Shown: one piece after another, positions 3,795-29,686 of the stretch | How the letters are laid out: each line of letters opens with the position of its first letter | Position numbering within the stretch: the first letter of the stretch is position 1 | Virus record (IMG/VR): IMGVR_UViG_3300005529_001081 | Span: 1 to 55,374 of that record | Source of the DNA: a virus | Length of the DNA stretch: 55,374 nt | Strand: one strand, 5' to 3' | Translations under genes and position numbers: made by a program | The notes under the pieces: model-generated | Seen by the model: the letters and a program-made list of their open reading frames with translations, nothing else | What the model was told of the DNA's origin: nothing | Database searches by the model: none

Positions 3795-4096
3795 GCTGAG
3801 ACCTTTCCGGTGCGGAGTCCCGCCTCATGCGCGATGTGCTTTTGGGCGAGTTTCCGGATTTCTAGAATCCGCTCGGCCACGCCGCACAGGTACCGCAGAT
3901 TCACTTTGCCCTTCCGAATTTCCTCGAGGCTCATGAAGTGCGGCAGGATCGCGTCCGCGGTTCCATCCCATTGCGGCCGGGATACTTCGACGTAGCGCTC
4001 GAGCAGCGCGGCGAGCTCTTCGTCGAGGCAGAAAGCCGCGAACAGCGAGATCCGCTCCTGGATCATCAGCGTTTCGGCTTCGGTGAGCTTCTTCAT
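3791..4096 (-). CDS. Hypothetical phage protein (101 aa)
   Basis: A helical 101-residue protein (MKKLTEAETLMIQERISLFA, then DEELAALLERYVEVSRPQWDG). No family recognised. It overlaps the ATPase gene upstream and the HNH gene downstream by 4 bases each, so it may act with them in DNA processing; that link rests on position only. Confidence 0.65.
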   Translation of the reverse strand: MKKLTEAETLMIQERISLFAAFCLDEELAALLERYVEVSRPQWDGTADAILPHFMSLEEIRKGKVNLRYLCGVAERILEIRKLAQKHIAHEAGLRTGKVSA

Positions 4097-5811
4097 CCGA
4101 ACAGCTCCGGAGCGGCGCGCACGCCGCCTTTTTCGGCGATCACCAGCTGGCGGGCGGCCAGGCGCTGAATGTAGGTATCGCGCGAGGACCGCTGGTATTC
4201 AGACAGCTCGCCGATGGTGTCGCGATCGACGAGCTCGCCTTGGGCGTCCGCCAGGATCTCGAGAATTCGCTTTTCCCCAGCCGGCAATCGATCGAGCCAA
4301 TGGGCCAGCAATTCGGATCCGGTGGGCAGCGGCTCGAAATCTCCCAGAGCGGCGATGCCCTCCTCGGTCGGCCGCGGGTCCGCGGACAGATCCACAAATC
4401 CTTTTGCAGCCAACCGCTGCAGATATGTATCGCGCGAGCTGCGCTTATAGCCGGTCAGAACGGTCAGCTGCGGCTTGGTGACCTGCCCGTGCTGCGCTAC
4501 CGCGGCGAGAATCTTGCGCTCGCCGGCCGGCAGCTCGGCTGTACCTTCGGAGCTATTACCAACCCGTATATTACGAGTTCGGGAAGGGGCGGGAGCCGCA
4601 GGCCTGGCCGGCCCCGGCTTGATGGGCGTACCTGTGCTTCGCTCGGGCCGTTGGCTCGCGCGCTGATACGCGGCCGCAGAGCGCGCGTTCGCGACCGCGT
4701 GCAGAATTTCCCGGCCGATGGTCTCGAGCCGCGCGAGCGCTTCCTCGGAGACCACCTGGACCTCGACCGGCTTCTCGATGATCTTCTCTATCGGAGTCTG
4801 CGGCCTGCGCTCGAGCTCGGCCTTGAGCCGCGCGGCCTCCTTCTGCGCATCGGCCAGCTTGCGGCGCAGCTCGCGCGGATCTTCAGCCTTCGCTTTCTCA
4901 ATGGTCTCGGCGAGGCGCTGCTCCAGGCGCGCCAAGTCGACCGCAGCCAGTTTCCGCGGCGCCGCGCGCGTGCCCCCGACCTCGGGAGTTGCCGAGGAGT
5001 CAAATGTTTCGAGCTTCCGGACCTTAACGCACTGAAACAGGTCAAGCCAGGCCGGGCTCCAGAACCAGGCTTTCTCGACCGCGAGCGATGCGAGCGAATT
5101 CATCATCAGCGCCTGCTTCTCCGGTGTCCCGTGCACTTTCACCCAGGCCTCGATCGCCGCGCGGTCCTGCGGCGCGATCGTGCGCTTGGCAATCAGCACT
5201 TCGATCTGCGTGAGCAGATCCTTGTTGATCGATGCCGACCGCTGCGTAATCATCGTGACCCCGATCCCGCGGGCCCGCCCTCGGCGAACCAGGTCTTCCA
5301 TCGCGCCCAGGAGTCGCGGGGCGAGATTCCCTACCGGCCGCTGCGGCGCCCAGGCGTCGGCCTCATCGATGAACAGGTGGAGTGCTTCGCGATTCAAACG
5401 GTAGAGCGATTCGGCGAAGCCGATCATGAACTGCGTCTGCTCGCCCTTGCGGAAGCGCGAGAGATCGATCACCACCGAAATCTTTTCTTCGACCAGGAAG
5501 CGCGCGATCTCCTCGCCGGCTTTCTCGGTTGCCTGGAGCGGCAGGTCGCCATAATCGCCGCCGAGAACGGTGATCGGCAGCCCAGGAGATTTGCCGGAAG
5601 CCGCCAGGCGCAGGCCCCACCAGTTGCCGATCGGATCCACAGCGCAGACGTGCGCATTGGCGCCGAGCATCTCCTCAGCCAGTACTTTGGCGGTGTAGGA
5701 TTTTCCGCCGCCGCGCTTCCCCAGAATCCCGAAGGTCTGCGTGACCGCCTCGAGCGGCAGAGTTAAGTCCGAAGCGATTTGTAGGGCATTCGGCGCCGCT
5801 GCCGGCATCAC
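4093..5811 (-). CDS. HerA-like P-loop ATPase with two C-terminal winged-helix repeats
   Basis: A 572-residue protein. Walker A is GKRGGGKSYT (residues about 31-40) and Walker B is LHLFIDEADAW (about 142-152), followed by RG-ARGIGVTMITQR, the sensor/arginine region typical of HerA/FtsK-like DNA translocases. Residues about 300-360 form a coiled coil (ARLEQRLAETIEKAKAED). The C-terminus has two tandem winged-helix-like repeats, each with A-GE--IL--- and Y-RSSRDTY-QRLAA. The family pumps DNA or assists end processing, usually with NurA, which is not present here. The start is GTG at 5811 followed at once by ATG. It could support replication, packaging-independent DNA handling or segregation. Confidence 0.8.
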   Translation of the reverse strand: MMPAAAPNALQIASDLTLPLEAVTQTFGILGKRGGGKSYTAKVLAEEMLGANAHVCAVDPIGNWWGLRLAASGKSPGLPITVLGGDYGDLPLQATEKAGEEIARFLVEEKISVVIDLSRFRKGEQTQFMIGFAESLYRLNREALHLFIDEADAWAPQRPVGNLAPRLLGAMEDLVRRGRARGIGVTMITQRSASINKDLLTQIEVLIAKRTIAPQDRAAIEAWVKVHGTPEKQALMMNSLASLAVEKAWFWSPAWLDLFQCVKVRKLETFDSSATPEVGGTRAAPRKLAAVDLARLEQRLAETIEKAKAEDPRELRRKLADAQKEAARLKAELERRPQTPIEKIIEKPVEVQVVSEEALARLETIGREILHAVANARSAAAYQRASQRPERSTGTPIKPGPARPAAPAPSRTRNIRVGNSSEGTAELPAGERKILAAVAQHGQVTKPQLTVLTGYKRSSRDTYLQRLAAKGFVDLSADPRPTEEGIAALGDFEPLPTGSELLAHWLDRLPAGEKRILEILADAQGELVDRDTIGELSEYQRSSRDTYIQRLAARQLVIAEKGGVRAAPELFG

Positions 5812-6074
5812 GCGTGATTCTCCTGGAAAAAAGCCGCCGGGCCCAGAATTCGCAGGCGCTCGAGGCCTGGCAAAACGTTCTGACGCTTGCGGGCCTGCTC
5901 TATAAGCACTGCATCCATTCGGCCACGAAGCACCTGGCGCGTGGATTCAGTGATCACCAGCGCTTGTACCAGGGCCTTCAGGGTGCATGGCGGCAGCAGG
6001 TCGAGACGGCATGGTTTCAGCAGCCGCAAAGATTCCTCGATGCGCGCTCGCAGGATGGATTCGGCCATGCTCAT
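5808..6074 (-). CDS. Hypothetical phage protein (88 aa)
   Basis: A helical, arginine-rich 88-residue protein (MSMAESILRARIEESLRLLK) with no recognised domain. Its stop overlaps the start of the ATPase gene (GTGA), so it is probably co-translated with it. A longer open frame on the opposite strand exists here but does not fit the unbroken overlapping chain of minus-strand genes. Confidence 0.55.
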   Translation of the reverse strand: MSMAESILRARIEESLRLLKPCRLDLLPPCTLKALVQALVITESTRQVLRGRMDAVLIEQARKRQNVLPGLERLRILGPAAFFQENHA

Positions 6075-6376
6075 GCCGGCGCCGCCTTCGATTTGGCTGG
6101 CTCAACTGGATCCGCATCGGCGAATGCTTCGGCCGTCTTCGCGAAGCGGGCCGCTGCGCGCGACATCACTCTTGCGCCCTCACGAGCCCCCTTCGAGGAC
6201 ATGCAGACTTCGTGGAACAAGAGAAGAAGATGCTTGAACTCGCTCTTCATCAGGAAGTAGAGCTCGAGCCGGCATGTTGGCAGAGACGTAGGATCGCCTG
6301 GCTGCTCTCGTAGCTCAGGCCGCTCCACACCGTGGAGCGGATCGGGAAAAGCATGGCCGTTGTGCACAGAGCTCAT
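6071..6376 (-). CDS. Hypothetical phage protein (101 aa)
   Basis: Residues 35-60 (CRLELYFLMKSEFKHLLLLFHEV) are hydrophobic and the C-terminus is alanine/lysine rich. No family recognised. Four-base overlaps on both sides (6071-6074 and 6373-6376) are the main support for it being real. Start choice is not certain because the first 30 residues look poorly conserved in style. Confidence 0.5.
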   Translation of the reverse strand: MSSVHNGHAFPDPLHGVERPELREQPGDPTSLPTCRLELYFLMKSEFKHLLLLFHEVCMSSKGAREGARVMSRAAARFAKTAEAFADADPVEPAKSKAAPA

Positions 6377-6618
6377 CGGGCGGATCGAACCTTTCTGGAT
6401 CCGGCAGATGCGATCGCCTTGGCCTGTGGCTTCCTGAGAAGCTGTAATTGCCGCGCGCGTGCGCCACGGGCGAGGGCGCTTTTTTGGGCTGATTCGTTAT
6501 CAAGAGCGGCGACCGCAAGGCGCTGTGTTTCGGCGGGAGGACCTGCGAAATAGCGCTCAAAAGTCAGGTCGTCGACTTCGCCGCGCTCGCCGTTTTCGAA
6601 TGTGACCGCGATCTGCAT
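6373..6618 (-). CDS. Hypothetical phage protein (81 aa)
   Basis: MQIAVTFENGERGEVDDLTFERYFAG suggests a small beta-sheet N-terminus followed by a basic alanine-rich helix. No family recognised. Part of the overlapping leftward operon. Confidence 0.55.
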   Translation of the reverse strand: MQIAVTFENGERGEVDDLTFERYFAGPPAETQRLAVAALDNESAQKSALARGARARQLQLLRKPQAKAIASAGSRKVRSAR

Positions 6619-6621
6619 GCT

Positions 6622-6891
6622 TCACGCGCTAAACACGCGGCTGCCAGATCGCCGCTTGCTGGAGAGATCAGACCCATTGCGCGCGGGAATATTGAGGCGC
6701 TTTTCCCACAGGGTCAGTGCCCTTATGTAAACATCGCGAGAGCGATCGAGAGCTTCCGCCCGCGCGAGATACCGCGCTGCGATCTTTCTGAGCGCCTCCG
6801 GGTGGTTCCACAGCCCAATCCACAGGGCGGCCGCACACAGCGCCGCGACAACTAGCATCCAGTTGATTCCAACGCCGAGGTCTGCCGTCAT
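6622..6891 (-). CDS. Small membrane protein (89 aa)
   Basis: One clear transmembrane helix at residues about 10-28 (INWMLVVAALCAAALWIGLW), followed by a basic cytoplasmic-type tail with ARYLARAEALDRSRDVYIRA. Family unknown. It overlaps the upstream gene by 4 bases. It could be a membrane anchor or exclusion factor; nothing in the sequence decides. Confidence 0.6.
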   Translation of the reverse strand: MTADLGVGINWMLVVAALCAAALWIGLWNHPEALRKIAARYLARAEALDRSRDVYIRALTLWEKRLNIPARNGSDLSSKRRSGSRVFSA

Positions 6892-7263: not shown

Positions 7264-7776
7264 CTATGGCGACGCAGGTTGCTGCGCCGCAGGCTTACAG
7301 TCGTCGAGATACCGCCCGAGCCTGAATCCGAGATTCCAAGCCCATCGCACCAGCGGAGTGTCGAACGGATTTCGAGCGTGCTGATTCTTCCCGTCCCGCA
7401 GGCGCCGATAACACCGCAGACCTTCGCGTTCGGAGAAGGCCAAGAAATCCTGCTCGCTCATCCCGTCCGGACTCTGCTCCTGATCGCGCGACAGGAAGTG
7501 ATAATGGACGCACTTCTCGCACGCCAGGCGAAGCCTGAACCCGTCGGCCTGGGAGTCGCGCCCGTTGAAGCCATCAATGCACAGCTCGCACAGCATCGCG
7601 CCCCAAGCGTCATGGGTGGGCTCGCAGCGGAAAAATACCTGCGCGCCGCCGAGAACGTGTACGCAGATTGCTACGCCCGAGACAGACTGCCCCGGATGGA
7701 TCCGGCATTCGACCTTTGGATGGTTGCACGGCCGAACCTCCGGCAGCTCCAGAACTTTTTCCGTGGAGCGTTTCAT
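7264..7776 (-). CDS. Cysteine-rich probable zinc-binding protein (170 aa)
   Basis: The 170-residue product holds Cys/His clusters: PCNHPKVECRIHPGQ near the N-terminus and LCELCIDGFNG followed by CEKCVHYHF in the middle, which fits one or two zinc sites. The C-terminal third is basic and aromatic. Family not recognised. It is translated directly after the replication protein (4-base overlap 7773-7776), so a role in replication or transcription is possible by position only. Confidence 0.6.
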   Translation of the reverse strand: MKRSTEKVLELPEVRPCNHPKVECRIHPGQSVSGVAICVHVLGGAQVFFRCEPTHDAWGAMLCELCIDGFNGRDSQADGFRLRLACEKCVHYHFLSRDQEQSPDGMSEQDFLAFSEREGLRCYRRLRDGKNQHARNPFDTPLVRWAWNLGFRLGRYLDDCKPAAQQPASP

Positions 7777-8915
7777 GACCCCTCTTCCACGATGAACTCC
7801 ACGCGCTGCACGCCGATCCCGAGATGGACAGCGGCGGCACGGATCTGGCCCGTGAATATTTCGCGGATATAATCCGCGGTCACTTGCTGCGGAACGCGAA
7901 TTGTTAGCACTGCACGCTCGTGCGAGCTGAAGGCGGTTTGCAGCAACCAGTTGCTGTATTCGGTCTCCGAAACCATTCGCTTCAGTTCGGCGCGGATTCG
8001 TGACCAGGGGCTCGACGAATCCTCCGGCTCAGCTTTGAAATTCTTCTTCTCTGCCGTAGCTTCCTGCTTCGGAGAAGGCGAAAGCACTTGCACCGCGGCG
8101 GCATATCCGTCGCGCGCCTCTTTCGCCAGCTTCGGGAAAAGGCCGCTTTGAACGCTGTGCCGGTCACGCCGGACGCGATTTCGTACGACCCCCATGAAAT
8201 GTTCAATGGGAGTCGGCCCCAGCTCGGCGGCGACGTCGTTGAGTAGCTTCTCATCAGGGACTTTGCCGAGGCCAAGATGGACGAACACCGGCGTCAAGGC
8301 TTCCCTGAGCTTCGGAACCAACACCGATACTGGAGTATCGGGGGTGGCCTTTAACCTGATGGAAACACTCAGACCATCGTCAGATATGGACTCGCTTACC
8401 CGAACCGATTCAGGAGCGTCGTATGTCACCGGAAGCTCGCCGCGCTCGACGATCGAACGAGGCAGCGAAACAACTACCGGAGCGGATGGCGTCCGCGACT
8501 TGTATTCCTGGCGGTCTAACGTCTTGGGCTCGAGCTTCGGAGCGGAGCGAAATTTTTCCACCAGAGCACGATACTCAAGACTGCGGCCCACGTCTCCGCG
8601 GGATTGGATAAGACCCAGCTCGTCCTCGAGCTGCCCGAGCGCCTTACGAACGCCGATGGCCGAAGCCGCGCACTCCTCCGCCAGCTCTGTGATCTCAAGC
8701 CTGGCCCAGTCTTGGTGTCCATCCGGAGATCCCCAGGTGTTCCGGAGAATAATCCCGACGATTTTGTAAGGAAGTCCGTCCAACCGCGCAGGAAGGAAAT
8801 CGAAATAATCGTTGGGTATCGAGGACCATCCGCCGCGAACCTTTGGGGATCTGCCACCGTTTTCGGAGCCGGCCTGCACGACGGATTTGCGCGCGGGAGC
8901 TGGTGCGGCGGCCAT
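7773..8915 (-). CDS. Putative replication initiator with DnaA-domain-I-like C-terminus
   Basis: A 380-residue protein; the start at 8915 forms a TAATG overlap with the upstream gene. Residues about 30-130 (IPNDYFDFLPARLDGLPYKIVGIILRNTWG then RLEITELAEECAASAIGVRKAL) look like the winged-helix N-terminus of phage replication proteins. The last 75 residues, W--I-AELKRMVSETEYSNWL ... LTIRVPQQVTADYIREIF, match DnaA domain I, the part that binds helicase or helicase loader. The AAA+ and DNA-binding domains of DnaA are absent. It would recruit the host helicase to the phage origin. A GATACTGGAGTATC palindrome lies inside the gene at 8326-8339. Confidence 0.7.
   Translation of the reverse strand: MAAAPAPARKSVVQAGSENGGRSPKVRGGWSSIPNDYFDFLPARLDGLPYKIVGIILRNTWGSPDGHQDWARLEITELAEECAASAIGVRKALGQLEDELGLIQSRGDVGRSLEYRALVEKFRSAPKLEPKTLDRQEYKSRTPSAPVVVSLPRSIVERGELPVTYDAPESVRVSESISDDGLSVSIRLKATPDTPVSVLVPKLREALTPVFVHLGLGKVPDEKLLNDVAAELGPTPIEHFMGVVRNRVRRDRHSVQSGLFPKLAKEARDGYAAAVQVLSPSPKQEATAEKKNFKAEPEDSSSPWSRIRAELKRMVSETEYSNWLLQTAFSSHERAVLTIRVPQQVTADYIREIFTGQIRAAAVHLGIGVQRVEFIVEEGS
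8326..8343. repeat. Copy of the GATACTGGAGTATC palindrome inside the replication gene
   Basis: GATACTGGAGTATCGGGG here is identical over 18 bases to the copy starting at 11385. On the coding strand it encodes Asp-Thr-Pro-Val-Ser. Phage origins often lie within the initiator gene, so this may be a binding site of the protein or of a regulator that acts at both places. Confidence 0.6.
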
Positions 8916-9145
8916 TAGCGTGTAGCTCCCGCGGCCGCAGTTCCGAGCGCGTTCGCCATCGCGGAAACCGCGGCTTTGTGATCGCGCTCCATCTGTGCTT
9001 CCAGCGCGACGCTCCAGTGCACCACGCCCCCAAAAACGCCGCTCGTGTCGGAGAAGCACAGATCGGTGATCTTCCGCCAGCCGCGATCCACAAGAAACTT
9101 TCCGATCGATTCGATGGTGATCTCTGGCGCCGAGCTCGGATGCAC
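8915..9145 (-). CDS. Hypothetical phage protein (76 aa)
   Basis: The start chosen is GTG at 9145 because AGGAGG stands 5 bases before it; an in-frame GTG at 9160 lacks a site. The product has an alpha-beta half (ITIESIGKFLVDRGWRKITDLCFSD) and an alanine-rich helical end. Family unknown. The stop overlaps the ATG of the replication gene (TAATG), so it is coupled to replication. Confidence 0.6.
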   Translation of the reverse strand: MHPSSAPEITIESIGKFLVDRGWRKITDLCFSDTSGVFGGVVHWSVALEAQMERDHKAAVSAMANALGTAAAGATR

Positions 9146-11355: not shown

Positions 11356-11384
11356 GGACGCAGGCCGCGGGGCCTACCTACCTG

Positions 11385-11445
11385 GATACTGGAGTATCGG
11401 GGTCACACTGATACTCCAGTATCGAAAAAGCGGTACCCGAGTATC
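11385..11445. repeat. Array of three GATACTGGAGTATC-type palindromes
   Basis: Copy 1 at 11385-11398 is GATACTGGAGTATC; copy 2 at 11410-11423 is its exact inverse GATACTCCAGTATC; copy 3 at 11432-11445, GGTACCCGAGTATC, matches 11 of 14 positions. Centres are 25 and 22 bases apart. A further exact copy is at 8326 in the replication gene. The spacing of about two helical turns suggests iterons or operators. An AT-rich stretch (TTAAATATTAA, about 11460) and a hairpin (ACTTCT/AGAAGT, 11484-11500) follow, as in many origins. Confidence 0.7.
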
Positions 11446-11576: not shown

Positions 11577-12176
11577 TCACCATTGGCCGGCAAGTCGCTG
11601 GCCGAGTTCGTCACGCCGTTTGTTGCGCACCTTGAGGTAGCGCATCGTGCTCCGTATATCGCGATGACCAAGGTGATCCTGGACTTCCTCGGCCGATGCT
11701 CTTTCTCCCAGCAGCGTTCCGGCCGAATGACGTAGACAATGGAAGTGGCGTTTGGATTCCGGAAGGCCTGCACGAGCTCCGTAGTGCTTCATGAGCTGGT
11801 CAAGCCTGCTCCTCGATACCGGCCGCCCACCTTGGCGAGACACAAACAGCGGTCCCGGCCCTGTTCCGCGGATCGCGATCCATTTCCGCAGCGCGCGCAC
11901 CTCGCGATCCGTCAGTAAATATTCTCCGGAGTTGCCGCCCTTCAGTCTCTCGATGTAGAGCCTCCTGGCAGTCATCCGCAGGCCCGAAACTTTTAGGCGG
12001 CCTACCTCGCTCGCGCGCAGCCCGCGGTGGAACGCGACCTCAAAGATCGCCAGGTCGCGGGGAGAGTCAATCGAGCGAAACAGCGCATCGAGCTCGTCTT
12101 CGTTCAGGTACTGCAGGTCTCGCCCGGAGTACTTTCGCGCGCGGGAAACGGGCGCTTTCCGCTTCTGTAAGTCCAT
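11577..12176 (-). CDS. Catalytic-domain-only tyrosine recombinase (recombinase 2)
   Basis: At 199 residues it holds only the catalytic domain, like FimB/FimE, with all catalytic residues: R54 (HRGLRASEVG), K79 (ERLKGGNS), H146-x-x-R149 (HFHCLRHSAG), H171 (DHLGHRD) and Y180 (TMRYLKV). The N-terminal core-binding domain of normal integrases is missing. It lies just downstream of a 28-bp palindrome (12196-12223) that has the 11-6-11 arrangement of Xer/dif-type sites, and of the Ku gene. It may invert or excise DNA at that site, resolve multimers, or simply be an old host-derived XerD-like gene. Confidence 0.85.
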   Translation of the reverse strand: MDLQKRKAPVSRARKYSGRDLQYLNEDELDALFRSIDSPRDLAIFEVAFHRGLRASEVGRLKVSGLRMTARRLYIERLKGGNSGEYLLTDREVRALRKWIAIRGTGPGPLFVSRQGGRPVSRSRLDQLMKHYGARAGLPESKRHFHCLRHSAGTLLGERASAEEVQDHLGHRDIRSTMRYLKVRNKRRDELGQRLAGQW

Positions 12177-12194: not shown

Positions 12195-12224
12195 AGTTGG
12201 ACAGAATCTGCATTCTGTCCAACT
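12195..12224. repeat. Perfect palindrome, candidate recombinase site or operator
   Basis: AGTTGGACAGAAT (12195-12207), four bases, ATTCTGTCCAACT (12212-12224): 13-bp perfect arms. Counted as 11-bp arms it leaves a 6-bp centre (TCTGCA), the geometry of dif sites. It sits 19-48 bases upstream of the recombinase 2 start codon. It could be the crossover site or an operator controlling recombinase 2. Confidence 0.65.
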
Positions 12225-12287: not shown

Positions 12288-12302
12288 ATTCTGTCCAACT
12301 CG
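12288..12302. repeat. Direct repeat of one palindrome arm
   Basis: ATTCTGTCCAACTCG repeats 12212-12226 exactly, 76 bases away, just after the Ku stop codon. A degenerate arm (AGCTGGACAAAAC, 13091-13103) and a weaker one (GGTTGGAGAAGAT, near 13114-13126) occur in front of Ku. So the arm sequence brackets the Ku gene. Confidence 0.55.
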
Positions 12303-12308
12303 TGGAAT

Positions 12309-13052
12309 TCAGCCCCGGGCGGCAGTGCGCCGGCTCCGAGAGGGCTTCTCCCCGGCACCCAGGCCGGGTAGGGTACTCCCGGCGGCAGCTACCTTGGAAG
12401 CGATCAGGCGCTCCACGCGCTGCTGCTGGAGGTCGGGATAGTCCTGGTAGCCGAAATCGCCCGCGGCTCGTTTAAGCGCGCGCATCGCGGCCGTGATCTC
12501 CGATTCAGACGCTGCCTGTTCGTCGGTCCTGAACTCGTCGAGCGATCGCAGCTCATGGGAGAAGAAAAGCGTGTGAGCCACGATCCCCAATTTCCCGGCC
12601 CGGAAGATCATTGGACGCTCGCGGGAATAGAGCCTCATCAGCGCTATGCCCGCAAGCGACGTCCTACGGAGCGCACCGAAAAGAGCCGCGTAAGGTAGCT
12701 CGTCTTGCGCGGGCGCCACGTAGTAGGACGATTCAAACTGGGTCGGATCCATCTGCTCGAGCGGCACGAAACGAAGCTCGATCGAGTCGCCTGCGGCCGG
12801 AGCCAGGCTCTCGATTTCTTCTTCGGTGAGAGTAGCGAACTTGCCTTTCTCGTATTCGTAGCCTTTCACCAGCTCGGTGCGAGCGATCGGCTTGTCCTCG
12901 CCCTGGCAGTACAAGACCTGCTTCACGCGGGACAGGTCTGTGGCGTGGAGCTGATTGAAAGACGGATTCTCTCCCCGCGCTCCCGTCAGAATCCTGACTG
13001 CGACCGATCGGCCGCCGTAGACCAGTTGTCCCTTCCAGACCGGTGTGCCCAT
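12309..13052 (-). CDS. ku: Ku protein (non-homologous end joining)
   Basis: The 247-residue product matches bacterial Ku over its length: WKGQLVYGGRSVAVRI at the N-terminus, the core VKGYEYEKGKFATLTEEEIESLAP, DPTQFESSYYVAP and the beta-barrel end ERPMIFRAGKLGIVAHTLFF. The size is typical of bacterial Ku; the last 30 residues are basic. Ku homodimers ring DNA ends and recruit ligase LigD, which is not encoded here and would come from the host. A few actinobacteriophages carry Ku and use it for genome circularisation. AAAGG is about 7 bases before the ATG. Opposite in direction to the late operon, it is probably expressed early or in lysogeny. Confidence 0.93.
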   Translation of the reverse strand: MGTPVWKGQLVYGGRSVAVRILTGARGENPSFNQLHATDLSRVKQVLYCQGEDKPIARTELVKGYEYEKGKFATLTEEEIESLAPAAGDSIELRFVPLEQMDPTQFESSYYVAPAQDELPYAALFGALRRTSLAGIALMRLYSRERPMIFRAGKLGIVAHTLFFSHELRSLDEFRTDEQAASESEITAAMRALKRAAGDFGYQDYPDLQQQRVERLIASKVAAAGSTLPGLGAGEKPSRSRRTAARG

Positions 13053-16191: not shown

Positions 16192-16926
16192 GTGCAATCA
16201 AAAGTCAGAAAGCGAAATCGCCTGGCCGAAGAACACCTCTGGCTGGCGACATCCATCGCGAATCAGATCTCGGAAACGCTTCCCGTCCACGTGGATTTCG
16301 ATGACTTGCGCCAAGCCGGTCTACTCGGCCTACTGGATGCCGCGGACAGGTATTCGCCCGATCGCGGCGTGAAGTTCTCCAGCTTTGCGAAGTTCCGGAT
16401 CCGTGGGGCGATTCTTGACTACCTCAGGGACCTGGATTGGGCGAGCCGGGACATGCGGCGCCAGCAGAAAGAACTGGCCTCGGTATACAACGACCTCGCC
16501 AACCGCCTCCAGCGCGAACCGGACCTGGCCGAACTCGCGGGGGAGTTAGGGATCGATGTGGAAAAGCTCGGCCAGAGAATCAAGGCGAGTATGCTCGAGC
16601 ACGGTCTGGTCTCCGCATCTTTCCGCACTGGCGGCGACGGGGACGACCTTCCGCCTTCCGATTTTGCGGCGCCTGGCGCGACCAGGCCCGACTCCGTGGC
16701 CTCTCAAAACGAACTTCGGGGATTCCTGGACAAGGCGTTGAACACGCTTCCAGAACGGTATCGCAGAGTCATTTCTCTCTATCACTTTCGTGAGCTCACG
16801 ATGCGCCAGGTCGGGGATGTTCTAGGCGTCAATGAAAGCCGGGTCTCGCAGATGCACCAAATAGCGCTCAAGCGAATGCGAGCAGTCCTCCTGGAAGAGG
16901 GCATTCCTTCCGCGCAGGCTTTCTAA
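16192..16926 (+). CDS. Phage RNA polymerase sigma factor (FliA/WhiG-like)
   Basis: A 244-residue complete sigma factor starting at GTG. Region 2 spans about residues 10-80 (DDLRQAGLLGLLDAADRYSPDRGVKFSSFAKFRIRGAILDYLRDLDW), region 3 about 85-135 (LQREPDLAELAGELGI) and region 4 about 185-235 (LPERYRRVISLYHFRELTMRQVGDVLGVNESRVSQMHQIALKRM). Overall it is sigma-28 type. Placed directly before the terminase genes, it probably directs host RNA polymerase to late promoters. Confidence 0.88.
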   Translation: MQSKVRKRNRLAEEHLWLATSIANQISETLPVHVDFDDLRQAGLLGLLDAADRYSPDRGVKFSSFAKFRIRGAILDYLRDLDWASRDMRRQQKELASVYNDLANRLQREPDLAELAGELGIDVEKLGQRIKASMLEHGLVSASFRTGGDGDDLPPSDFAAPGATRPDSVASQNELRGFLDKALNTLPERYRRVISLYHFRELTMRQVGDVLGVNESRVSQMHQIALKRMRAVLLEEGIPSAQAF

Positions 16927-16933
16927 GCGACCG

Positions 16934-17386
16934 GTGGCTTCGAACAAGCACGCGCCTCTCGGACTCCGGGCAGCGGCTAGCAAACTCAAAATCAGCCACG
17001 TCGCGCTGCTGAAGGCGGTCGAGTCGGGCAGGATTAAGCGGCGTGAGGATGGCAAATTCGACCTGGAAGCCTGTCGGCGAGAGCTGGCAGCCAACAGCAA
17101 TCCGAAGAAACAGAAATCGGCCCGCGCGCAGCAGCACAAGAAGCCGCTCAGTCCGGATGACACCTACAACGAGCTCTGCCGGCGCCGCGAAGCCGTAAAG
17201 CTTGAGAAGGATGAGTTAGACCTGGCGCGTAAGAAGGGCGAGTTGGTTCCGATCGGCGAGGTAAACGCATTCATTTCCGGAATGATCATTCGGGCGCGCG
17301 ATCGCTTGCTCGCAATCGAATGCGATGAGCGCACCGGCCACGAAATACGCGGCGCTCTCCGAGACCTCGCTCAGTACGTGGGCTAG
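16934..17386 (+). CDS. Terminase small subunit
   Basis: A 150-residue protein starting at GTG. The first 50 residues (LRAAASKLKISHVALLKAVESGRIKRREDGKFDLEACRRELA) are a winged/HTH domain like lambda Nu1. A coiled-coil middle (YNELCRRREAVKLEKDELDLARKKGELVPIGEV) and a C-terminal helix follow, the usual build of small terminases in this family. It recognises the packaging site and hands DNA to the large subunit, whose start overlaps it by 62 bases. Confidence 0.8.
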   Translation: MASNKHAPLGLRAAASKLKISHVALLKAVESGRIKRREDGKFDLEACRRELAANSNPKKQKSARAQQHKKPLSPDDTYNELCRRREAVKLEKDELDLARKKGELVPIGEVNAFISGMIIRARDRLLAIECDERTGHEIRGALRDLAQYVG

Positions 17387-19283
17387 CCTCTGGCTTCCGC
17401 CGGAACGGCTGCCGCTGTCGCAGTGGGCCGAGCAGAATTTGATTCTGTCCTCGGAATACTCCGCCAGCATCGGTCCAATAAAGCTGTACGGCTGGCAGAA
17501 GGAGCCACTCGATAGCTTCACGGATCCGCGCGTAGAAACGACCGTGCTGATGTGTTCGACGCAGATGCTCAAGACTCTGTTGATCCAGGCAGCCCTCGCC
17601 TACTCCATCAGCCAGCAGCCAGGGCCGACGCTTATCCTCGAGCCCAAGGACGCCGACGCCAAATCGTTCTCTAAAGAACGCCTGGCGCCCATGATCCGGG
17701 ACAATCCCTCTCTGAGCGTCGTCGCGGAATCGAAGGGGCGGTCCAGTTCAAACACGATCCAGGAAAAAACCTTCCCTGGCGGCACGTTGGCCTTGGTCGG
17801 AGCAATCGCGCCCGGCAATCTGGCCCGGAGATCGATCCGGTACCTCCTGTGCGACGAGATCGACAAGTACCCGGCCAGCGCAGGCGCCGAAGGCGATCCG
17901 ATCGACCTAGCCTGGGAACGGACAGTAACTTTCGGTGCGCGCCGTAAACGGGTGCTGGCCTGTTCCCCGACCGGCCTCGGGCGAAGCCGCATCGGCAAGG
18001 CTTATGAGGCGAGTGACCGGCGCCGGCCATGGATCCCGTGTCCCAAATGCGGAGAGTTCCAGGTCCTCAAATGGAGCCAGGTCGTTTTCGATCCTGTCGG
18101 CTACAAATGCGCAGCCTGTGGGGCCGTCTGGGCAGACGAGGAACGCTGGGCCGCTTGCGAGCGAACGGAATGGCGCCCGGAAGGCCCTTTTCGCGGCACG
18201 GCCGGATTCTGGATCTCGCATCTCTATTCGCCCTGGAAGCGAATGGCGGCAATGGTCGCTGACTACCTCGACCGGAAGGAAGACCGGCAGCGATACAAAG
18301 TTTTCGTCAACACGACGCTGGCCGAGCTCTGGGAAGAGCAGGGCGATACCCCAGATGACGAGATTCTGCTGGGCCGGAGAGAAGAGTACCCAGCAAATGA
18401 TCAGGCCGTTGTGCCAACGCGCGGTCTTTTCCTTACCTGCGCCGTCGACGTTCAGGAAAACCCTCCTCGGCTCGAGTACGAGGTCGTCGCCTGGGGCAGA
18501 AACCGGGAGAACTGGTCCATTGCCTACGGAGCCGTACAGGCTACGGCGTCAAACGGCCAGGCGCTTCCGGTAACGAGCCCCGAGCTCTGGGAAAAGCTCG
18601 ATCGCGAGGTGCTTCAGCGCGAATGGCAGCACGAGAGCGGCCAGAGCCTCCCCATTCTGGCAATGGGGATTGATACAGGTTCGAGGCCACAGCCGGTTTA
18701 TGAGTTCGCCAAACGTCACGCTCAGCCTGTATATTCCGCTGCCGGGTTGAAAGTGGCGGCGCCGCGTACCGTTGTCCCGCTCAAGGGCGTCAAGGACGAG
18801 ATCCGGGTCATCTCCAAGATCTCCAAAGAGGACGCGGCAAGGAAACGGCAGAATGTTCGAATCGTGAGCATCGGGACGCACCGGTGCAAGCAGGAACTTT
18901 ACGACGATCTCAGAGATTCCCGCCCGAGGCCTGACGGATCCGCCTCTCCTCGGTGTCACCATTTTCCGCAGGCCTATGGCAGCCAGTATTTCGAAGGGCT
19001 GTGCTCAGAGAAGCGGGTGCTGAAAGCCAGCGGAGACGTCTCCTGGCAGAAGGTGCCCGGCCGCCGCAACGAGCCCTTGGACCTTAAAGTTTACAACCGC
19101 GCATGCTATGCAATCGTCGGCGGTGACAGGTTTAACGAGGCTCAGTGGGCCAGTTTCGAGGAAGCCGTGGCTCCGGCCGTTGCTGAGCCGGAGTCTGAAC
19201 CCGAGCCTTCCGAACGGCTTGACGCGGAGCCGGAGACAGGGGGTTGGCTGGGCAGCAGAACGCGCAACTGGCTTCGCCGTTAG
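17325..19283 (+). CDS. Terminase large subunit, GpA family
   Basis: The 652-residue protein follows the lambda GpA family: LSQWAEQNLILSSEYSASIG-IKLYGWQKEPLD at the start, an ATPase with CSTQMLKTLL in place of Walker A and LLCDEIDKYP as Walker B, a four-cysteine zinc site (CPKCGEFQVLKW and YKCAACGAVW), and a C-terminal nuclease with FLTCAVDVQENPPRLEYEVVAWG and CHHFPQAYGSQYFEGL. The Walker A glycine before K-T is leucine here. GpA enzymes cut at cos sites, so the virion DNA probably has cohesive ends. The ATG lies inside the small-subunit gene. Confidence 0.95.
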   Translation: MSAPATKYAALSETSLSTWASLWLPPERLPLSQWAEQNLILSSEYSASIGPIKLYGWQKEPLDSFTDPRVETTVLMCSTQMLKTLLIQAALAYSISQQPGPTLILEPKDADAKSFSKERLAPMIRDNPSLSVVAESKGRSSSNTIQEKTFPGGTLALVGAIAPGNLARRSIRYLLCDEIDKYPASAGAEGDPIDLAWERTVTFGARRKRVLACSPTGLGRSRIGKAYEASDRRRPWIPCPKCGEFQVLKWSQVVFDPVGYKCAACGAVWADEERWAACERTEWRPEGPFRGTAGFWISHLYSPWKRMAAMVADYLDRKEDRQRYKVFVNTTLAELWEEQGDTPDDEILLGRREEYPANDQAVVPTRGLFLTCAVDVQENPPRLEYEVVAWGRNRENWSIAYGAVQATASNGQALPVTSPELWEKLDREVLQREWQHESGQSLPILAMGIDTGSRPQPVYEFAKRHAQPVYSAAGLKVAAPRTVVPLKGVKDEIRVISKISKEDAARKRQNVRIVSIGTHRCKQELYDDLRDSRPRPDGSASPRCHHFPQAYGSQYFEGLCSEKRVLKASGDVSWQKVPGRRNEPLDLKVYNRACYAIVGGDRFNEAQWASFEEAVAPAVAEPESEPEPSERLDAEPETGGWLGSRTRNWLRR

Positions 19284-19503: not shown

Positions 19504-21012
19504 TTGAACTGGATCGACCGGAGCGTGGCTTGGCTGGCGCCGCAGGCCGGCCTACGCCGTGCGCGCGCCCGGCTGGCCCTTCAGGCCGTCGAGCGATTCG
19601 CCTACGAGGGAGCCAAATCTGGCCGCCGGACCTCTGGCTGGACCACGCGCGGATCCGATGCCAACTCCGAAATCGGCTCCGGGCTGAGTTCGCTGCGCGA
19701 TCGCGCGCGCGACCTGGTCCGCAACAATCCGCACGCGGCCAGGGGCGTCATGGAGCTGGCCGGCGCGCAGATAGGGACGGGCATCATTCCGCGGGCCGAT
19801 ACGGGCGACAAGAATCTCGACAAGCTCATCGATGGCGAGTTCAGCCGGTGGGCGGAGCGCTGCGATGCTGACGGTCAGCTGGATTTCTACGGCGTGCAAT
19901 GGCAGGTCGTGAAGGCTGTCCCGGAGAGCGGCGAGGCGCTGGTTCGCTTTAAGATTTCCCGACCGTCCTCGGAGATCCGAGTTCCGCTACAGCTGCAGGT
20001 ACTCGAGTCGGATTTCCTGGACCACACCCGCACGATCCAGACCGAGACCGGGGGCTACATCCTCCAAGGCGTCGAATTCGACAAGAGCGGTCAGCGGAAG
20101 GCCTATTGGCTATGGACCACGCATCCGGGATCGGTGCTGCCCATCTCGCCGCGACTGTTGAGTCAGCCCGTGCCCGCAACAGACGTGCTCCATGTGTACA
20201 AGAAAGACCGTCCAGGGCAGGTTCGCGGGGCGAGCTGGTTTGCGCCTGTGATCATGAAGCTGCGCGACCTCGATGAATATGAGGACGCCGAGCTCATTCG
20301 AAAAAAGATCGAAGCCTGCGTCGTGGCCTTCATCGAATCGCCAGAGGGCGCCGATGCGGCAGGACTTGGAAAACCAAAAACAGATTCTTCCGGCAGGAAA
20401 GTCGAATCATTCGAGCCCGGCATGATCGAGCGCCTGTCGCCGGGCGAGAAGGCCACCTTCAACAGCCCCCAGGCTACCGGCGGGTATCGCGATTTCCGAA
20501 CGCCCCAGCTCCAGGCGATCGCCGCCGGCCTCGGCCCGACTTACGAGCAGCTCAGCGGAGACTTTTCGAACGTAAACTACAGCAGCTTCCGCGGAGCACG
20601 CCTCGGATTCAACACAGTGGTCGAGCAGTATCGCTGGTTGTGCCTGATCCCGATGTTTTTGCTGCCGGTCTGGCGCAAGTTTATCGACATGGCCTACTTG
20701 GCCGGCGTGATTCCTGAGCCGAACTACGGCGTCCGCTGGACGGCGCCCAAGCTCGAGTCCGTGGATCCGCTCAAAGACGCTCTGGCTGAACGTCAGCGTC
20801 TGCGCAACCTGACTCTAACCCTCCCAGAAGCCATCGCAGAGCACGGGTATGATCCCGCCAGCCAGCTCGAGGAAATCGCCGAGACGAACAAGACACTCGA
20901 CGAGCTCGGGCTGATCAGTGATGGCGACCCCAGGAAGGTAACCGCTGCCGGCGTGGGCCAGACCGTGGCCCTGGCCGCCGAGAAAGGGCACCTATTAGAT
21001 GCCAGCCATTAA
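19504..21012 (+). CDS. Portal protein, lambda family
   Basis: The 502-residue product starts at TTG 4 bases after the gpW-like gene. It has the lambda-B portal signatures: LRDRARDLVRNNPHAARGVMELAGAQIGTGI, QWQVVKAVPESGEALVRF, DVLHVYKKDRPGQVRGASWFAPVIMKLRDLDEYEDAELIRKKIEACVVAFI, and LSGDFSNVNYSSFRGARLGFN. It forms the dodecameric ring at one capsid vertex through which DNA enters and leaves. It overlaps the protease gene by 14 bases. Confidence 0.95.
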   Translation: MNWIDRSVAWLAPQAGLRRARARLALQAVERFAYEGAKSGRRTSGWTTRGSDANSEIGSGLSSLRDRARDLVRNNPHAARGVMELAGAQIGTGIIPRADTGDKNLDKLIDGEFSRWAERCDADGQLDFYGVQWQVVKAVPESGEALVRFKISRPSSEIRVPLQLQVLESDFLDHTRTIQTETGGYILQGVEFDKSGQRKAYWLWTTHPGSVLPISPRLLSQPVPATDVLHVYKKDRPGQVRGASWFAPVIMKLRDLDEYEDAELIRKKIEACVVAFIESPEGADAAGLGKPKTDSSGRKVESFEPGMIERLSPGEKATFNSPQATGGYRDFRTPQLQAIAAGLGPTYEQLSGDFSNVNYSSFRGARLGFNTVVEQYRWLCLIPMFLLPVWRKFIDMAYLAGVIPEPNYGVRWTAPKLESVDPLKDALAERQRLRNLTLTLPEAIAEHGYDPASQLEEIAETNKTLDELGLISDGDPRKVTAAGVGQTVALAAEKGHLLDASH

Positions 21013-22013: not shown

Positions 22014-23570
22014 ATGAACCGAATCGAACGCCTTCGGCAAATGAAAAAGAAGGCGGTGGACCGTATGGAAGCGATCCATGCTACCGCGACAGCGGCCAAG
22101 CGGGATCTGACGGAGACCGAGAAAACCGAATACGAGCAGCTCAGGGCGGAAGCCGAAGACCTCTCGTTGACGATCGCCGATCTAGAAAAACTCGGGAGCC
22201 CAGCTCCCATGCCCGCTCCGGCGGCAAACCAGAAGGACGAAGCGACGCTCAAGGCCGAGGGGCGCCAGGAAGAGCGCCTGCGGGCAAAGACGATCGAAGA
22301 TCTCGTCGCCACGGCGAAACTTGGGGCGGATTTTGCCAAGCAGCTCGTCGAGTCCGGGGCGAGCATCGACCAGGCCCGGGAAAAGATCCTGAACAAGATG
22401 CGCGAAGACCAGGGTAAGCAGCCCGAAACCACCGCGCACGTGGCTGCCGGTGCGGATGCCCGCGACAAAGGCCGCGCCGCAATGACGGAGGCTCTGCTCC
22501 ATCGGATCAGCCCGCGCCAACATCAGCTCAAGGGCGCTAACGAGTATGCCGGCTTCACGCTGCTGGACTTCGCGCGCGAATCGCTGTCCCTTGCCGGCGT
22601 CAAGGTTCGGGGGATGAACCGCGACGAAATCGCCCGCGCGGCGCTGTTCGGCCGCAATGGAGCCGAACAGTATTTCGCCGGCCTGTCGGGGACCTCGGAT
22701 TTCCCGGCAATCACGGCCGACGTCGCCAACAAGCGGCTGCGGATGGCGTACGAGGCGGCTCCCCGGACGTTCGTTCCGTTCTGCCGCCAGGCTACGTCGC
22801 CTGACTTCAAGACCGTGAATCCGGTCCAGTTGAGCGACGTTTCGTCTTTCCAGAAAGTAAACGAGAACGGTGAGTTCAAGACATTCACCGCGTCGGACGG
22901 CAAGGAAAGCTACCGGCTGGCCACCTACGGCGGGATTTTCCGCATGACCCGCCAGCTGGTCATCAACGACGACCTCCGCGCTTTCGACCGGATCACCCAG
23001 GGGATCGGGACCTCGGCCGCGCGCCTGGAGAACGAGACCGTGTGGGCTGTGATCACCGCGAATCGGGCGATGGCGGACACGGTGGCTCTGTTCCATGCGA
23101 ACCACTCGAACCTGAATTCCGGCGGGACCAGCGTGTTGGATCTCGACGGACTCTCCGCCGCCCGCACGGCGCTGCGCAAGCAGACCGCGCCCAAGGGGCA
23201 AAAACTGAACCTCTCCGCGCGTTACATTCTGCTGCCTGCGGCGCTCGAGACAGCCTTCGATCAGCTCTACAACTCGCTGCAGCTTCTGGCTGCTCCGGCC
23301 CCCACAGACATCGTTCCGCCGGATCTCGTGCGTAACCTGACCAAGATCGTCGAGCCGATTCTGGACGATAGCAGCGCCACAGCCTGGTATCTGGCGGCGG
23401 ATCCGGCGACCATCGACACCATCGAGTACTGCTATCTGGAGGGTCAGGAAGGCGTCTACGTCGAGACCCGAAACGGCTTCGAAGTGGACGGAGTGGAAAT
23501 CAAGGGCCGGCTGGATTTTGCCGCCGCGGCGATCGACTACCGCGGTCTGCAAAAGAACGCCGGAGCCTAA
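22014..23570 (+). CDS. Major capsid protein with N-terminal scaffold domain
   Basis: The 518-residue protein has a strong site (TGGAGGAAGTGAA) before its ATG. Residues 1-140 are a charged coiled coil (RIERLRQMKKKAVDRMEAI, KTEYEQLRAEAEDLSLTIADLEKL), probably a built-in scaffold (delta domain) removed by the prohead protease. The remainder has the pattern of HK97-fold capsids of the Mu gpT-like group: YGGIFRMTRQLVINDDLRAF, LFHANHSNLNSGG, LSAARTALRKQTAPKGQKLNL and ARYILLPAALE. It is flanked by terminators, as expected for the most abundant product. Confidence 0.92.
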   Translation: MNRIERLRQMKKKAVDRMEAIHATATAAKRDLTETEKTEYEQLRAEAEDLSLTIADLEKLGSPAPMPAPAANQKDEATLKAEGRQEERLRAKTIEDLVATAKLGADFAKQLVESGASIDQAREKILNKMREDQGKQPETTAHVAAGADARDKGRAAMTEALLHRISPRQHQLKGANEYAGFTLLDFARESLSLAGVKVRGMNRDEIARAALFGRNGAEQYFAGLSGTSDFPAITADVANKRLRMAYEAAPRTFVPFCRQATSPDFKTVNPVQLSDVSSFQKVNENGEFKTFTASDGKESYRLATYGGIFRMTRQLVINDDLRAFDRITQGIGTSAARLENETVWAVITANRAMADTVALFHANHSNLNSGGTSVLDLDGLSAARTALRKQTAPKGQKLNLSARYILLPAALETAFDQLYNSLQLLAAPAPTDIVPPDLVRNLTKIVEPILDDSSATAWYLAADPATIDTIEYCYLEGQEGVYVETRNGFEVDGVEIKGRLDFAAAAIDYRGLQKNAGA

Positions 23571-23998: not shown

Positions 23999-24464
23999 CC
24001 GGTCGCTCGTTGTCGCACTGCTGGCGCTTCTGGCGCCAGTGTGGGCTCAGGAGACGAAGTACACCTATTTCGTCTCCCGCTCTGTCACCGGACAGACCAA
24101 CAGGATCACCATCCGCCAACCTACTGCTGGCGGCCGGGATCTGAAGCTCGATGGAGTCTACTTTTGCTGCTCCGTCGCGTGCAGCCCGGTAATCAGCAAG
24201 GGAGGCTCGGTCTCGGGGGGCACAGCGGGCACGATCGTAAATCTTGACGATCGTTCGCCGTCGGCCACCTCGTCAGCTACCTTGGACGGCACGGTGACCG
24301 GGGCGACGTCGATATCCTTCCCGACGATCAGCGCCGGCGCAGACAGGACCCACGGGGGCGGCCTCTACCTGCACTGGACAGGAACGCCAAGCCAGTTCAC
24401 CGTGGAGCTCACATCGGGGTCCAGCGGAACTCTCTACATACTGCTCAACTTCTCAGAACCGTGA
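23979..24464 (+). CDS. Secreted beta-rich protein with signal peptide (161 aa)
   Basis: The N-terminus (RRSASRSLVVALLALLAPVWAQETKY) is a clear Sec signal peptide with likely cleavage after A-Q or W-A. The mature part is serine/threonine/glycine rich and beta-like (TKYTYFVSRSVTGQTNRITI; LYLHWTGTPSQFTVELTSG), with one cysteine pair (CCSVAC). No family recognised. A signal peptide in the middle of the head operon is odd; the protein is probably exported by the infected or lysogenic cell. It overlaps the decoration gene by 20 bases. Confidence 0.6.
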   Translation: MGRRSASRSLVVALLALLAPVWAQETKYTYFVSRSVTGQTNRITIRQPTAGGRDLKLDGVYFCCSVACSPVISKGGSVSGGTAGTIVNLDDRSPSATSSATLDGTVTGATSISFPTISAGADRTHGGGLYLHWTGTPSQFTVELTSGSSGTLYILLNFSEP

Positions 24465-25111
24465 CGTATTGGACGGTTCCGAGGGAGTGGCCTGGGGAGA
24501 CCATATTTGTCCTGGCCGGCGGACCAAGCCTGCGCGGTTTCGACTCGAGCCCGCTGGCCGGCCGCCGGGTGATCGCGATCAATAATTCCTGGGAGCTTAA
24601 ACCAGATTGTGACGTCCTGCACTTTTGCGATCGCCGCTGGTGGGATCCGAATGGTTTGGGGCACGGTGAGCGGGTGAAAGCGGGATTTACTGGACGCTGG
24701 ATCACCACCGTCGCTGCCTTGGTTCACGATCCGGCGGTCAAGCGCCTTCGCCAGTCGATGCGCGAGAGCGGAGTCTCAGAGGATCCTTCCGCGCTGGTAC
24801 ACGGCGGTCACGGAGGGTATCAGGCGATCGGGCTGGCCTTCCTGTTTGGCGCCAAGAGGATCGTTCTCTTGGGCTATGACATGCGGTCGCTTCCCCTCGA
24901 GGAAGCAATTCCGGGCGACGGAACCCATTGGCACCACGGGCACTCCGGCCAGAGACGGGATCACTTCGAGCATCGGCTCAGGACTTGCTTTCTGCCCTCG
25001 ATGCGCAGGCTGGTAGAACCGCTCGCGCGGGCCGGAGTCGAAGTGCTTAACGCCACGCCCGATTCAGCGCTTGATTGCTGGCCGAGAGTGCGCCTGGAAG
25101 AAACGCTGTAG
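24461..25111 (+). CDS. DUF115-like phage protein, possible sugar-modifying enzyme
   Basis: The 216-residue product, starting at GTG in a 4-base overlap, begins FVLAGGPSLRGFDSSPLAGRRVIAINNSWEL-PDCDVLHFCDRRWW and continues GYQAIGLAFLFGAKRIVLLGYDM. The GGPSL and AINNS motifs and the Y-D-M end are those of DUF115/MptE-like proteins, which in other systems resemble glycosyltransferases that modify flagellin or surface sugars. It opens the glycan-modification cassette, which supports such a role. Confidence 0.65.
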   Translation: MTYWTVPREWPGETIFVLAGGPSLRGFDSSPLAGRRVIAINNSWELKPDCDVLHFCDRRWWDPNGLGHGERVKAGFTGRWITTVAALVHDPAVKRLRQSMRESGVSEDPSALVHGGHGGYQAIGLAFLFGAKRIVLLGYDMRSLPLEEAIPGDGTHWHHGHSGQRRDHFEHRLRTCFLPSMRRLVEPLARAGVEVLNATPDSALDCWPRVRLEETL

Positions 25112-25113
25112 CC

Positions 25114-25569
25114 GTGTTAGCCGGCAAGACCTGGTGCGCGCTGTACCCGACGAGCCGCCGCGTCGAGGATTTGATCGAACCGTTCAGATCGAATTGCTCT
25201 GGGTTCCTGGCTGATCTTAAGTCCTCCGGCGCCACGGTGCTGATCGCGGCTACGCGCCGGCCGGAAGAGAGAGCCTGGCTCATGCACTGGGCCTGGAGAA
25301 TTGGCCGAGAGGGATATGACCCGGCGAAAGTCCCTACTCGATCAGGTATTTCGATCGAATGGACCAGGCCGGGAGCCCTGGAGATGGTCGCCGGATACGG
25401 GATAGCCTACCGTCCGGCTTTGACGTCGCGGCACATTCAGGGCCGGGCGATCGACATGCGGATTACCGGATGGAAGGGAACCGAGCAGGAGCTCTACGCG
25501 CGGGGAGCCAGCTTCGGCGTCCGGAAGCTGATTAAAGACCCGCCCCACTGGAGCGACGACGGTACATGA
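25114..25569 (+). CDS. M15-like peptidase (probable endolysin)
   Basis: The GTG at 25114 starts 3 bases after the previous stop; the frame upstream of it lies within that gene. The 151-residue product has a peptidase M15-type zinc motif: SRHIQGRAIDMRITGW (H and D ligands) and PPHWSDDG (second H), with TRRPEERAWLMHWAWRIGREG before it. M15 enzymes cut L-Ala-D-Glu or D-Ala-D-Ala bonds in peptidoglycan. It is the best endolysin candidate, although it lies among glycosylation genes rather than in a lysis cluster; it could also be a virion-associated lysin. Confidence 0.7.
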   Translation: MLAGKTWCALYPTSRRVEDLIEPFRSNCSGFLADLKSSGATVLIAATRRPEERAWLMHWAWRIGREGYDPAKVPTRSGISIEWTRPGALEMVAGYGIAYRPALTSRHIQGRAIDMRITGWKGTEQELYARGASFGVRKLIKDPPHWSDDGT

Positions 25570-26138
25570 TTTCGGTGGTCATCCCGGTCCGCCGCGGCGG
25601 ATCTGCGCGTACGACACTCGTCTCGCTTGCAGCCCAAACGATGCAGGATTTCGAAATCATCGTTTCCTGGGACGAGGAGCTGCGGGGCGCAAATTGGGCC
25701 AGGAATCGCGGTGCCGAACTGGCAACGGGAGACCTCTTGCTGTTCTCGGACGACGACGTCTCCTGGTCGCACGACGCCCTTGAGCGATTGACCGGTGCGC
25801 TCGCCGCCGACCAGGCTGCCAGCTGGGCCTACGGTGCCTACGAAATGGGAGGTCGGATCCAATGCGACCTGCCGTTTGACGCCCGGCGCCTCCGGAGAGG
25901 GAATTACATTTCCACGATGAGCCTGGTCAAGCGAGCGGACTTTCCTGGCTTTGATGAGTCCGTCGCTCGACTTCAGGACTGGGATCTGTGGCTCACGATG
26001 ACGGAGCGGGGGCATCGGGGCGTGTACTGCGGCGGAGTTATCTTTTCGACCGTCGAGAAGCCTGGGATCACGCTTGATGGACCCGTCAGCTGGGAGGAAG
26101 CCCGCATGATCGTGGCGCGGAAACACGGTATTGCATGA
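25566..26138 (+). CDS. Glycosyltransferase family 2 (A)
   Basis: A 190-residue GT-A fold enzyme: MISVVIPVRRGGSARTTLVSLAAQ at the nucleotide-binding start, N-R-GAELATGDLLLFSDDDVSW with the D-D-D metal site, and a later F-G-FDESVARLQDWDLWL, the acceptor-side ED-like motif. It transfers a sugar from a nucleotide donor; the acceptor is unknown. The absence of membrane segments fits a cytoplasmic enzyme acting on virion proteins or phage DNA. Confidence 0.85.
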   Translation: MISVVIPVRRGGSARTTLVSLAAQTMQDFEIIVSWDEELRGANWARNRGAELATGDLLLFSDDDVSWSHDALERLTGALAADQAASWAYGAYEMGGRIQCDLPFDARRLRRGNYISTMSLVKRADFPGFDESVARLQDWDLWLTMTERGHRGVYCGGVIFSTVEKPGITLDGPVSWEEARMIVARKHGIA

Positions 26139-29140: not shown

Positions 29141-29143
29141 GGG

Positions 29144-29683: not shown

Positions 29684-29686
29684 GCT

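Follow-up and report, generated by a model that had tools for sequence, protein, structure and literature searches.

A host-derived Ku without the LigD-recruiting helix in a phage with a lambda-type terminase, possibly a cap for DNA ends

What use would a phage with a lambda-type packaging system have for a bacterial Ku protein? Lambda-type cohesive ends normally need only annealing and a housekeeping ligase. The genome in which we met this combination is IMG/VR virus record IMGVR_UViG_3300005529_001081, a linear sequence of 55,374 bases in which end repeats are absent and which we refer to, over its whole length, as the window. Both of its ends fall inside leftward genes and homologues of the two end regions are adjacent in a relative (G001), which suggests that the ends are probably assembly cuts and not virion ends; an SPFH/Band 7 membrane protein and a DUF5131 protein are encoded near the contig ends (180-728 and 53553-54671). 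The virus comes from soil and most likely infects Acidobacteriota bacteria.

The packaging genes follow the order putative small terminase subunit, GpA large terminase subunit, lambda-family portal, protease-like protein and capsid protein. The large subunit (17325..19283, plus strand, matching phrog_15) contains both a GpA_ATPase (PF05876, 9.6e-68) and a GpA_nuclease domain (PF20454, 2.1e-71) in Pfam, and with the lambda-family portal (19504..21012, plus strand, PF05136, 3.1e-110), where the late operon begins, this bears out the initial annotation of a GpA (cos) type terminase. The small subunit (16934..17386, plus strand) gives no match in Pfam and is assigned by its position, upstream of the large subunit gene and overlapping it, sharing 40-43% identity with the gene in the same place in relatives. 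The major capsid protein is encoded at 22014..23570 (plus strand, PF25209, 2.6e-54). The terminase genes lie upstream of ku, which occupies the minus strand, so that it is indeed transcribed away from the late operon as had been proposed. The phage was also said to lack a ligase, and this too holds: the ATP-ligase profile PF01068 found no match in the window or in three relatives, and no ligase was present among the larger window open-reading frames scanned with Pfam. A comparison of the ku-to-terminase DNA of the window with that of the relatives G002, G003 and G004 returned no conserved non-coding block that could represent cos, with all strong matches falling within the terminase genes, and sigma-70-like promoters were not found between 11.3 and 17 kb of the window (0 against 1.0 expected). 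A phage-encoded sigma factor, a possible late-operon switch, is located directly upstream of the terminase genes (16192-16926), and several family-2 glycosyltransferase-like open-reading frames between the capsid and tail genes (24461-31038) may modify the virion or the host surface.

The open-reading frame at 12309-13052 on the minus strand (247 aa) encodes a true bacterial-type Ku, exactly where the initial annotation had placed it. The profile check suggested there matches PF02735 (Ku) at E=2.5e-26 and 93 bits (cut-off 25), PHROG 4873 ('Ku-like DNA end binding') matches at 1.6e-25, and NCBIfam TIGR02772 (Ku_bact) scores 169 bits, above the equivalog cut-off of 150, with profile positions 2-228 of 259 matched. 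The AlphaFold2 model (pLDDT 78) has a DNA-binding beta-barrel core at residues about 5-225, and the bacterial Ku PDB chains 9vnq, 8v53 and 9i91 match both by sequence and by predicted fold, the best solved fold match being the B. subtilis Ku-DNA structure 9vnq (E 1.6e-17, as a single chain and with a high rmsd over the whole chain). The Mu Gam profile (PF07352) gave no match, and Pfam returned Ku and one unrelated, sub-threshold match for this protein.

Phage-borne Ku is already known from the mycobacteriophages Omega and Corndog (Pitcher 2006, as cited in PMC4351075 and PMC3706429). Searching annotated phages by tblastn with the window Ku recovered 50 records, 49 of them Mycobacterium phages and one a dubious 5.5-kb record, and an Omega-type Ku recovered 84; in keeping with the claim that Ku is rare in phages, it was confined to mycobacteriophages among the cultured, annotated phages searched. 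The window Ku shares 25-28% identity with these mycobacteriophage Kus and up to 46% with chromosomal Acidobacteriota Kus from the family to which a Candidatus Sulfopaludibacter MAG belongs; among 297 genomes drawn evenly from the phylum of that family the maximum was 47%, with five genomes at 43-47% and the rest at 37% or less. In the Ku tree, where Omega Kus were included and the Corndog-type Ku itself was left out, the three phage Kus (from the window and its closest relatives) form one clade (96/88) within the acidobacterial Kus (100/96). Support for the trio drops to 78 when a quick tree is built from fewer rows, each phage Ku alone is also placed among acidobacterial Kus, and the branches are long. 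A common clade with the Omega Kus was rejected (AU p about 0.001). On these phylogenetic grounds the phage ku was captured from an Acidobacteriota host, in a second capture independent of the mycobacteriophage Kus. A case of the Omega/Corndog type by descent is thus not borne out, by the AU test for the Omega Kus and by the GpA terminase, which was not found in three complete Omega/Corndog-group phages tested. Two sets of viral records were of doubtful origin: the 'Bacteriophage sp.' record MT838252.1 (L004), with Ku beside a formamidopyrimidine-glycosylase-like gene, was set aside as probably a bacterial chromosome fragment, and the 'viral' contigs L089, L090 and L091, with tandem Kus on short branches near rhizobial plasmid Kus, are possibly pieces of plasmids.

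The Candidatus Sulfopaludibacter family is rich in related prophage terminases (up to 47% identical, in 46 of 237 genomes), which makes it the best lead to the host, though not proof. Among 200 genomes of this family Ku was found in 127, the LigD polymerase in 128 and both in 122, and neither was found in the genome of the best prophage relative (G083). By eye, none of the Kus listed for the family lay close to a listed terminase on the same contig; weak Kus without LigD in two host genomes (G136 and G137) were considered as prophage Kus and rejected, the matches being partial only.

The closest relatives by terminase (66-68% identity) are G001, G002, G003 and G004, of which the first three are a single species (99.98-99.99% DNA identity over shared stretches). 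The upstream part of G002 is too short to show ku, and in all three informative relatives (G001, G003 and G004) ku adjoins the terminase genes but is encoded on the other strand, just as it is in the window. The pairing of ku with a GpA terminase, for which a survey of related prophages had been suggested, therefore recurs in the closest relatives but not further afield: no Ku turned up on the viral contigs, many of which are fragments, of 63 relatives with more distant terminases, and a GpA terminase was found on none of 15 other Ku-bearing viral contigs, which may be partial. Searching for further viral Kus with a close three-sequence alignment returned the known clade alone, and this clade is known from three lineages (the window, G001/G003 and G004).

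The initial annotation proposed that the phage Ku recruits host LigD and circularises the injected genome, which is what the mycobacteriophage Kus are thought to do (Pitcher 2006, as cited in PMC4351075 and PMC3706429), a precedent in its favour. LigD is recruited by the minimal C-terminal helix of Ku (PMC13201618, PMC9638933), which in host Kus carries the motif V-I-D-I-M-E-A-L-K-x-S. The motif is present in 62 of 62 acidobacterial Ku loci (a few loci repeat a gene) and in none of the three phage Kus of the clade, and reading the other viral and plasmid Kus by eye, those of the Omega type among them, showed it in every one. AlphaFold2 places the helix at residues 243-254 of a host Ku, and ends the phage protein in a short, disordered, basic tail (residues 226-247, 12312..12377, minus strand, pLDDT about 33). 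No remnant of the host helix follows the ku stop in any frame in the three phages, and a frameshifted C-terminus was accordingly rejected as the cause of its loss. The LigD-recruiting helix is missing from each phage Ku of the clade, judged by the motif and, for the window, by the model too.

A second surface, the beta1-beta2 synapsis loop (ku residues 9-24, 12981..13028, minus strand), is also altered. The loop is identical to that of a close host Ku (L259) at only 4 of 16 residues, against 37 of 45 for residues 25-69, and GGRSVA at residues 13-18 stands for host GLVSLP (G29-P34 in the numbering of B. subtilis Ku, bsKu, used throughout; PMC12784961). This stretch reads GLVNIP in bsKu, GLVSLP or GLVSFP in hosts, GDVRIP in G001 and AGVAIP in G004; the L30 position is L or M in 31 of 31 aligned acidobacterial Kus and G, D and G in the window, G001 and G004, respectively. 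The loop lies at the centre of the dimer-dimer interface and functions in Ku-Ku synapsis (PMC12784961, PMC12658125). Filaments are abolished without significant loss of DNA binding in bsKu L30G (PMC12784961), the very substitution carried by the window Ku, M. tuberculosis Ku L13A/V14A likewise binds DNA with filaments abolished, and the matching M. smegmatis mutant fails survival tests (PMC12658125). All three phage Kus are thus without the hydrophobic L30 residue of an NHEJ-competent Ku; rhizobial-type plasmid Kus have E here, so the change is no proof of lost synapsis. Across the oligomer interface, the window keeps 5 of 13 host-invariant columns, an excess of change against all other invariant columns (Fisher p=0.02) that is seen in the window only and is not significant in the relatives by the same comparison. 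DNA contacts fared better: the window Ku keeps W22, K23, K60, K79, Y128 and R188, and position 36 is still positively charged. K106 is replaced by D and R161 by Y, two less conserved positions at which the usual host residues are K/R and H, respectively. Of the 9 DNA-contact columns that are invariant in hosts, the window retains 8 and the relatives 6 and 5.

Taken against these results, LigD-dependent circularisation as in Omega and Corndog is not supported and we regard it as unlikely. None of the three phage Kus has the recruiting helix, which the Omega Kus retain, the synapsis loop is altered, GpA/lambda-type ends normally need annealing and a housekeeping ligase alone, and the genome of the best prophage relative showed neither partner. 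It retains some probability because the Ku core alone binds LigD and stimulates ligation in M. tuberculosis and P. aeruginosa (PMC9638933, PMC13201618) and because of the E at L30 in the rhizobial-type plasmid Kus; a LigD polymerase is, moreover, available in 128 of the 200 candidate-family genomes, with Ku in 122.

We favour a different reading, whose probability we judge evenly balanced, in which a host-derived Ku has been kept for binding DNA ends and not for LigD-dependent joining, as a Gam-like end cap. With the ligase arm and the partner-Ku surface lost and most DNA contacts kept, end-capping fits better than LigD joining. Sequence and model back the host origin of the core, the largely retained DNA contacts, the loss of the helix and the synapsis leucine, and the conserved position of the gene. 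The phage Ku would be made early from the leftward strand and would dimerise, and the ring-shaped dimer would thread onto free phage ends, those of the injected linear genome and/or rolling-circle tails. Ends bound in this way would be shielded from host RecBCD/AddAB-type exonucleases, as by Mu Gam, which stops RecBCD loading at DNA ends (PMC12407980); the cohesive ends could then anneal and be sealed by an ordinary host ligase, or the GpA terminase could cut and package the DNA. Counting against the end cap are the LigD binding by the bare Ku core in other species, the E at L30 in the rhizobial-type plasmid Kus, the changes at K106 and R161, the internal deletion and missing K79 of the G004 Ku, and the small number of lineages, three in all. 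Put as a general statement, that a captured NHEJ Ku was turned into a stand-alone, non-joining end cap or NHEJ blocker, with the LigD arm and synapsis surface discarded, the idea is a tentative one that we hold at somewhat below even.

The lost surfaces could also serve a dominant-negative inhibitor of NHEJ, whereby the phage Ku, dimerised with its host counterpart or sitting on ends, would keep the host Ku-LigD pair from trimming, filling or mis-joining the phage cos ends. Exactly the joining surfaces are lost with the core kept, likely hosts usually own an intact Ku-LigD pair, and identity of up to 47% to host Ku makes mixed dimers conceivable, but both the harm of NHEJ to the phage and the dimer interface are conjectural, and we consider this quite unlikely. 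Mu Gam can also help a host ligase to join ends, promoting NHEJ with E. coli ligase according to Bhattacharyya 2018 (as cited in PMC8136500), and so a Gam-like role in which the phage Ku holds the cohesive ends while a host NAD-dependent ligase seals them is a further rival; no ligase was found in the phage, as this would suit, but the altered synapsis loop speaks against end-bridging and makes it very unlikely.

The proposal that ku, once taken from a host, is now decaying or is carried along for a time without serving the phage is equally hard to believe: Ku has evolved fast (41% and about 30% identity between the window and its relatives, vs 66-68% for the terminase) and the copy in G004 is down to 191 aa, with an internal deletion and no K79, but the gene is open in three lineages at near-saturated dS (about 1.5-2.3, with dN about 0.6-0.8 and dN/dS about 0.35, a ratio that near saturation is only rough), and its place, its strand and conserved motifs such as EFRT are kept. 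From these open frames, ku is judged to be maintained in the phage clade despite near-saturated synonymous change.

Compared with known systems, the phage Ku resembles the chromosomal NHEJ Ku (TIGR02772) of Acidobacteriota in its core fold, most DNA-contact residues, identity (up to 47%) and tree position, and differs in being phage-encoded, with no LigD helix, a changed synapsis loop and a short tail. Omega-type (cluster J) and Corndog-type (cluster O) phages, for whose LigD-dependent circularisation virion ends with a short (4-base) 3' overhang would be expected, likewise carry Ku away from the structural genes; in Omega phages it is near an FtsK-like translocase, and the leftward region of the window encodes a HerA/FtsK-like ATPase with a MarR-like C-terminal part (4093-5811). 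The Omega Kus, by contrast, are of separate origin and keep the C-terminal motif, and a GpA terminase like that of the window was not found in the three such phages tested. With Mu Gam the phage Ku would share a role as a phage-made, end-binding dimer that shields DNA from RecBCD, but it belongs to another family, and an NHEJ-type Ku would have reached this role separately. RecBCD inhibitors such as lambda Gam would be alike in protecting the linear or rolling-circle DNA of a phage with a lambda-type terminase, though the target of lambda Gam, a DNA mimic, is RecBCD and that of Ku is the end of the DNA. Judging by the papers searched, two things are new: the independent capture of Ku by a phage clade that is linked to Acidobacteriota and has a lambda-type terminase, and the absence of both joining surfaces from a phage Ku. 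If true, a second capture with the joining surfaces lost separates Ku for joining from Ku for shielding, provides a natural separation-of-function Ku to compare with the new bacterial Ku structures, and brings NHEJ proteins into the contest for free DNA ends in which RecBCD, Gam and Gabija take part; it is a warning, too, that not every phage Ku means LigD-dependent circularisation.

The next gene downstream of ku encodes a small tyrosine recombinase (11577..12176, minus strand, 199 aa, PF00589 2.8e-29) that consists of the catalytic domain only and is FimB/XerA-like, with a match to the NCBIfam tyrosine-type DNA invertase that falls below the cut-off. It is 73% identical in G001/G003, where it is again beside ku (with one small open-reading frame between them in G001), and in G004 (L110) a serine recombinase adjoins ku in its place (5197-5937 and 6165-6740), ku thus staying near a site-specific recombinase though the recombinase family switches. 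The gap between ku and the recombinase gene holds a 30-bp perfect dyad, AGTTGGACAGAAT-4-ATTCTGTCCAACT (12195..12224, 13-bp arms and a 4-bp centre), and a third copy of the half-site at 12288-12301, giving three half-sites against 0.28 expected; these form a candidate recombinase core site, attP or operator. The matching place in G001 has a different dyad, CGGTCAAAA-6-TTTTGACCG. The strongest perfect dyad of the window lies on the far side of the small recombinase gene (11384-11423, 14-bp arms and an 11-bp centre), which is therefore bracketed by the two best dyads of the window. Elsewhere, a protein at 7773-9059 carries a DnaA N-terminal domain at its C-terminal end and may be a replication initiator or an interactor of the helicase loader, and a second, larger tyrosine integrase (500 aa) is encoded at 1123-2625.
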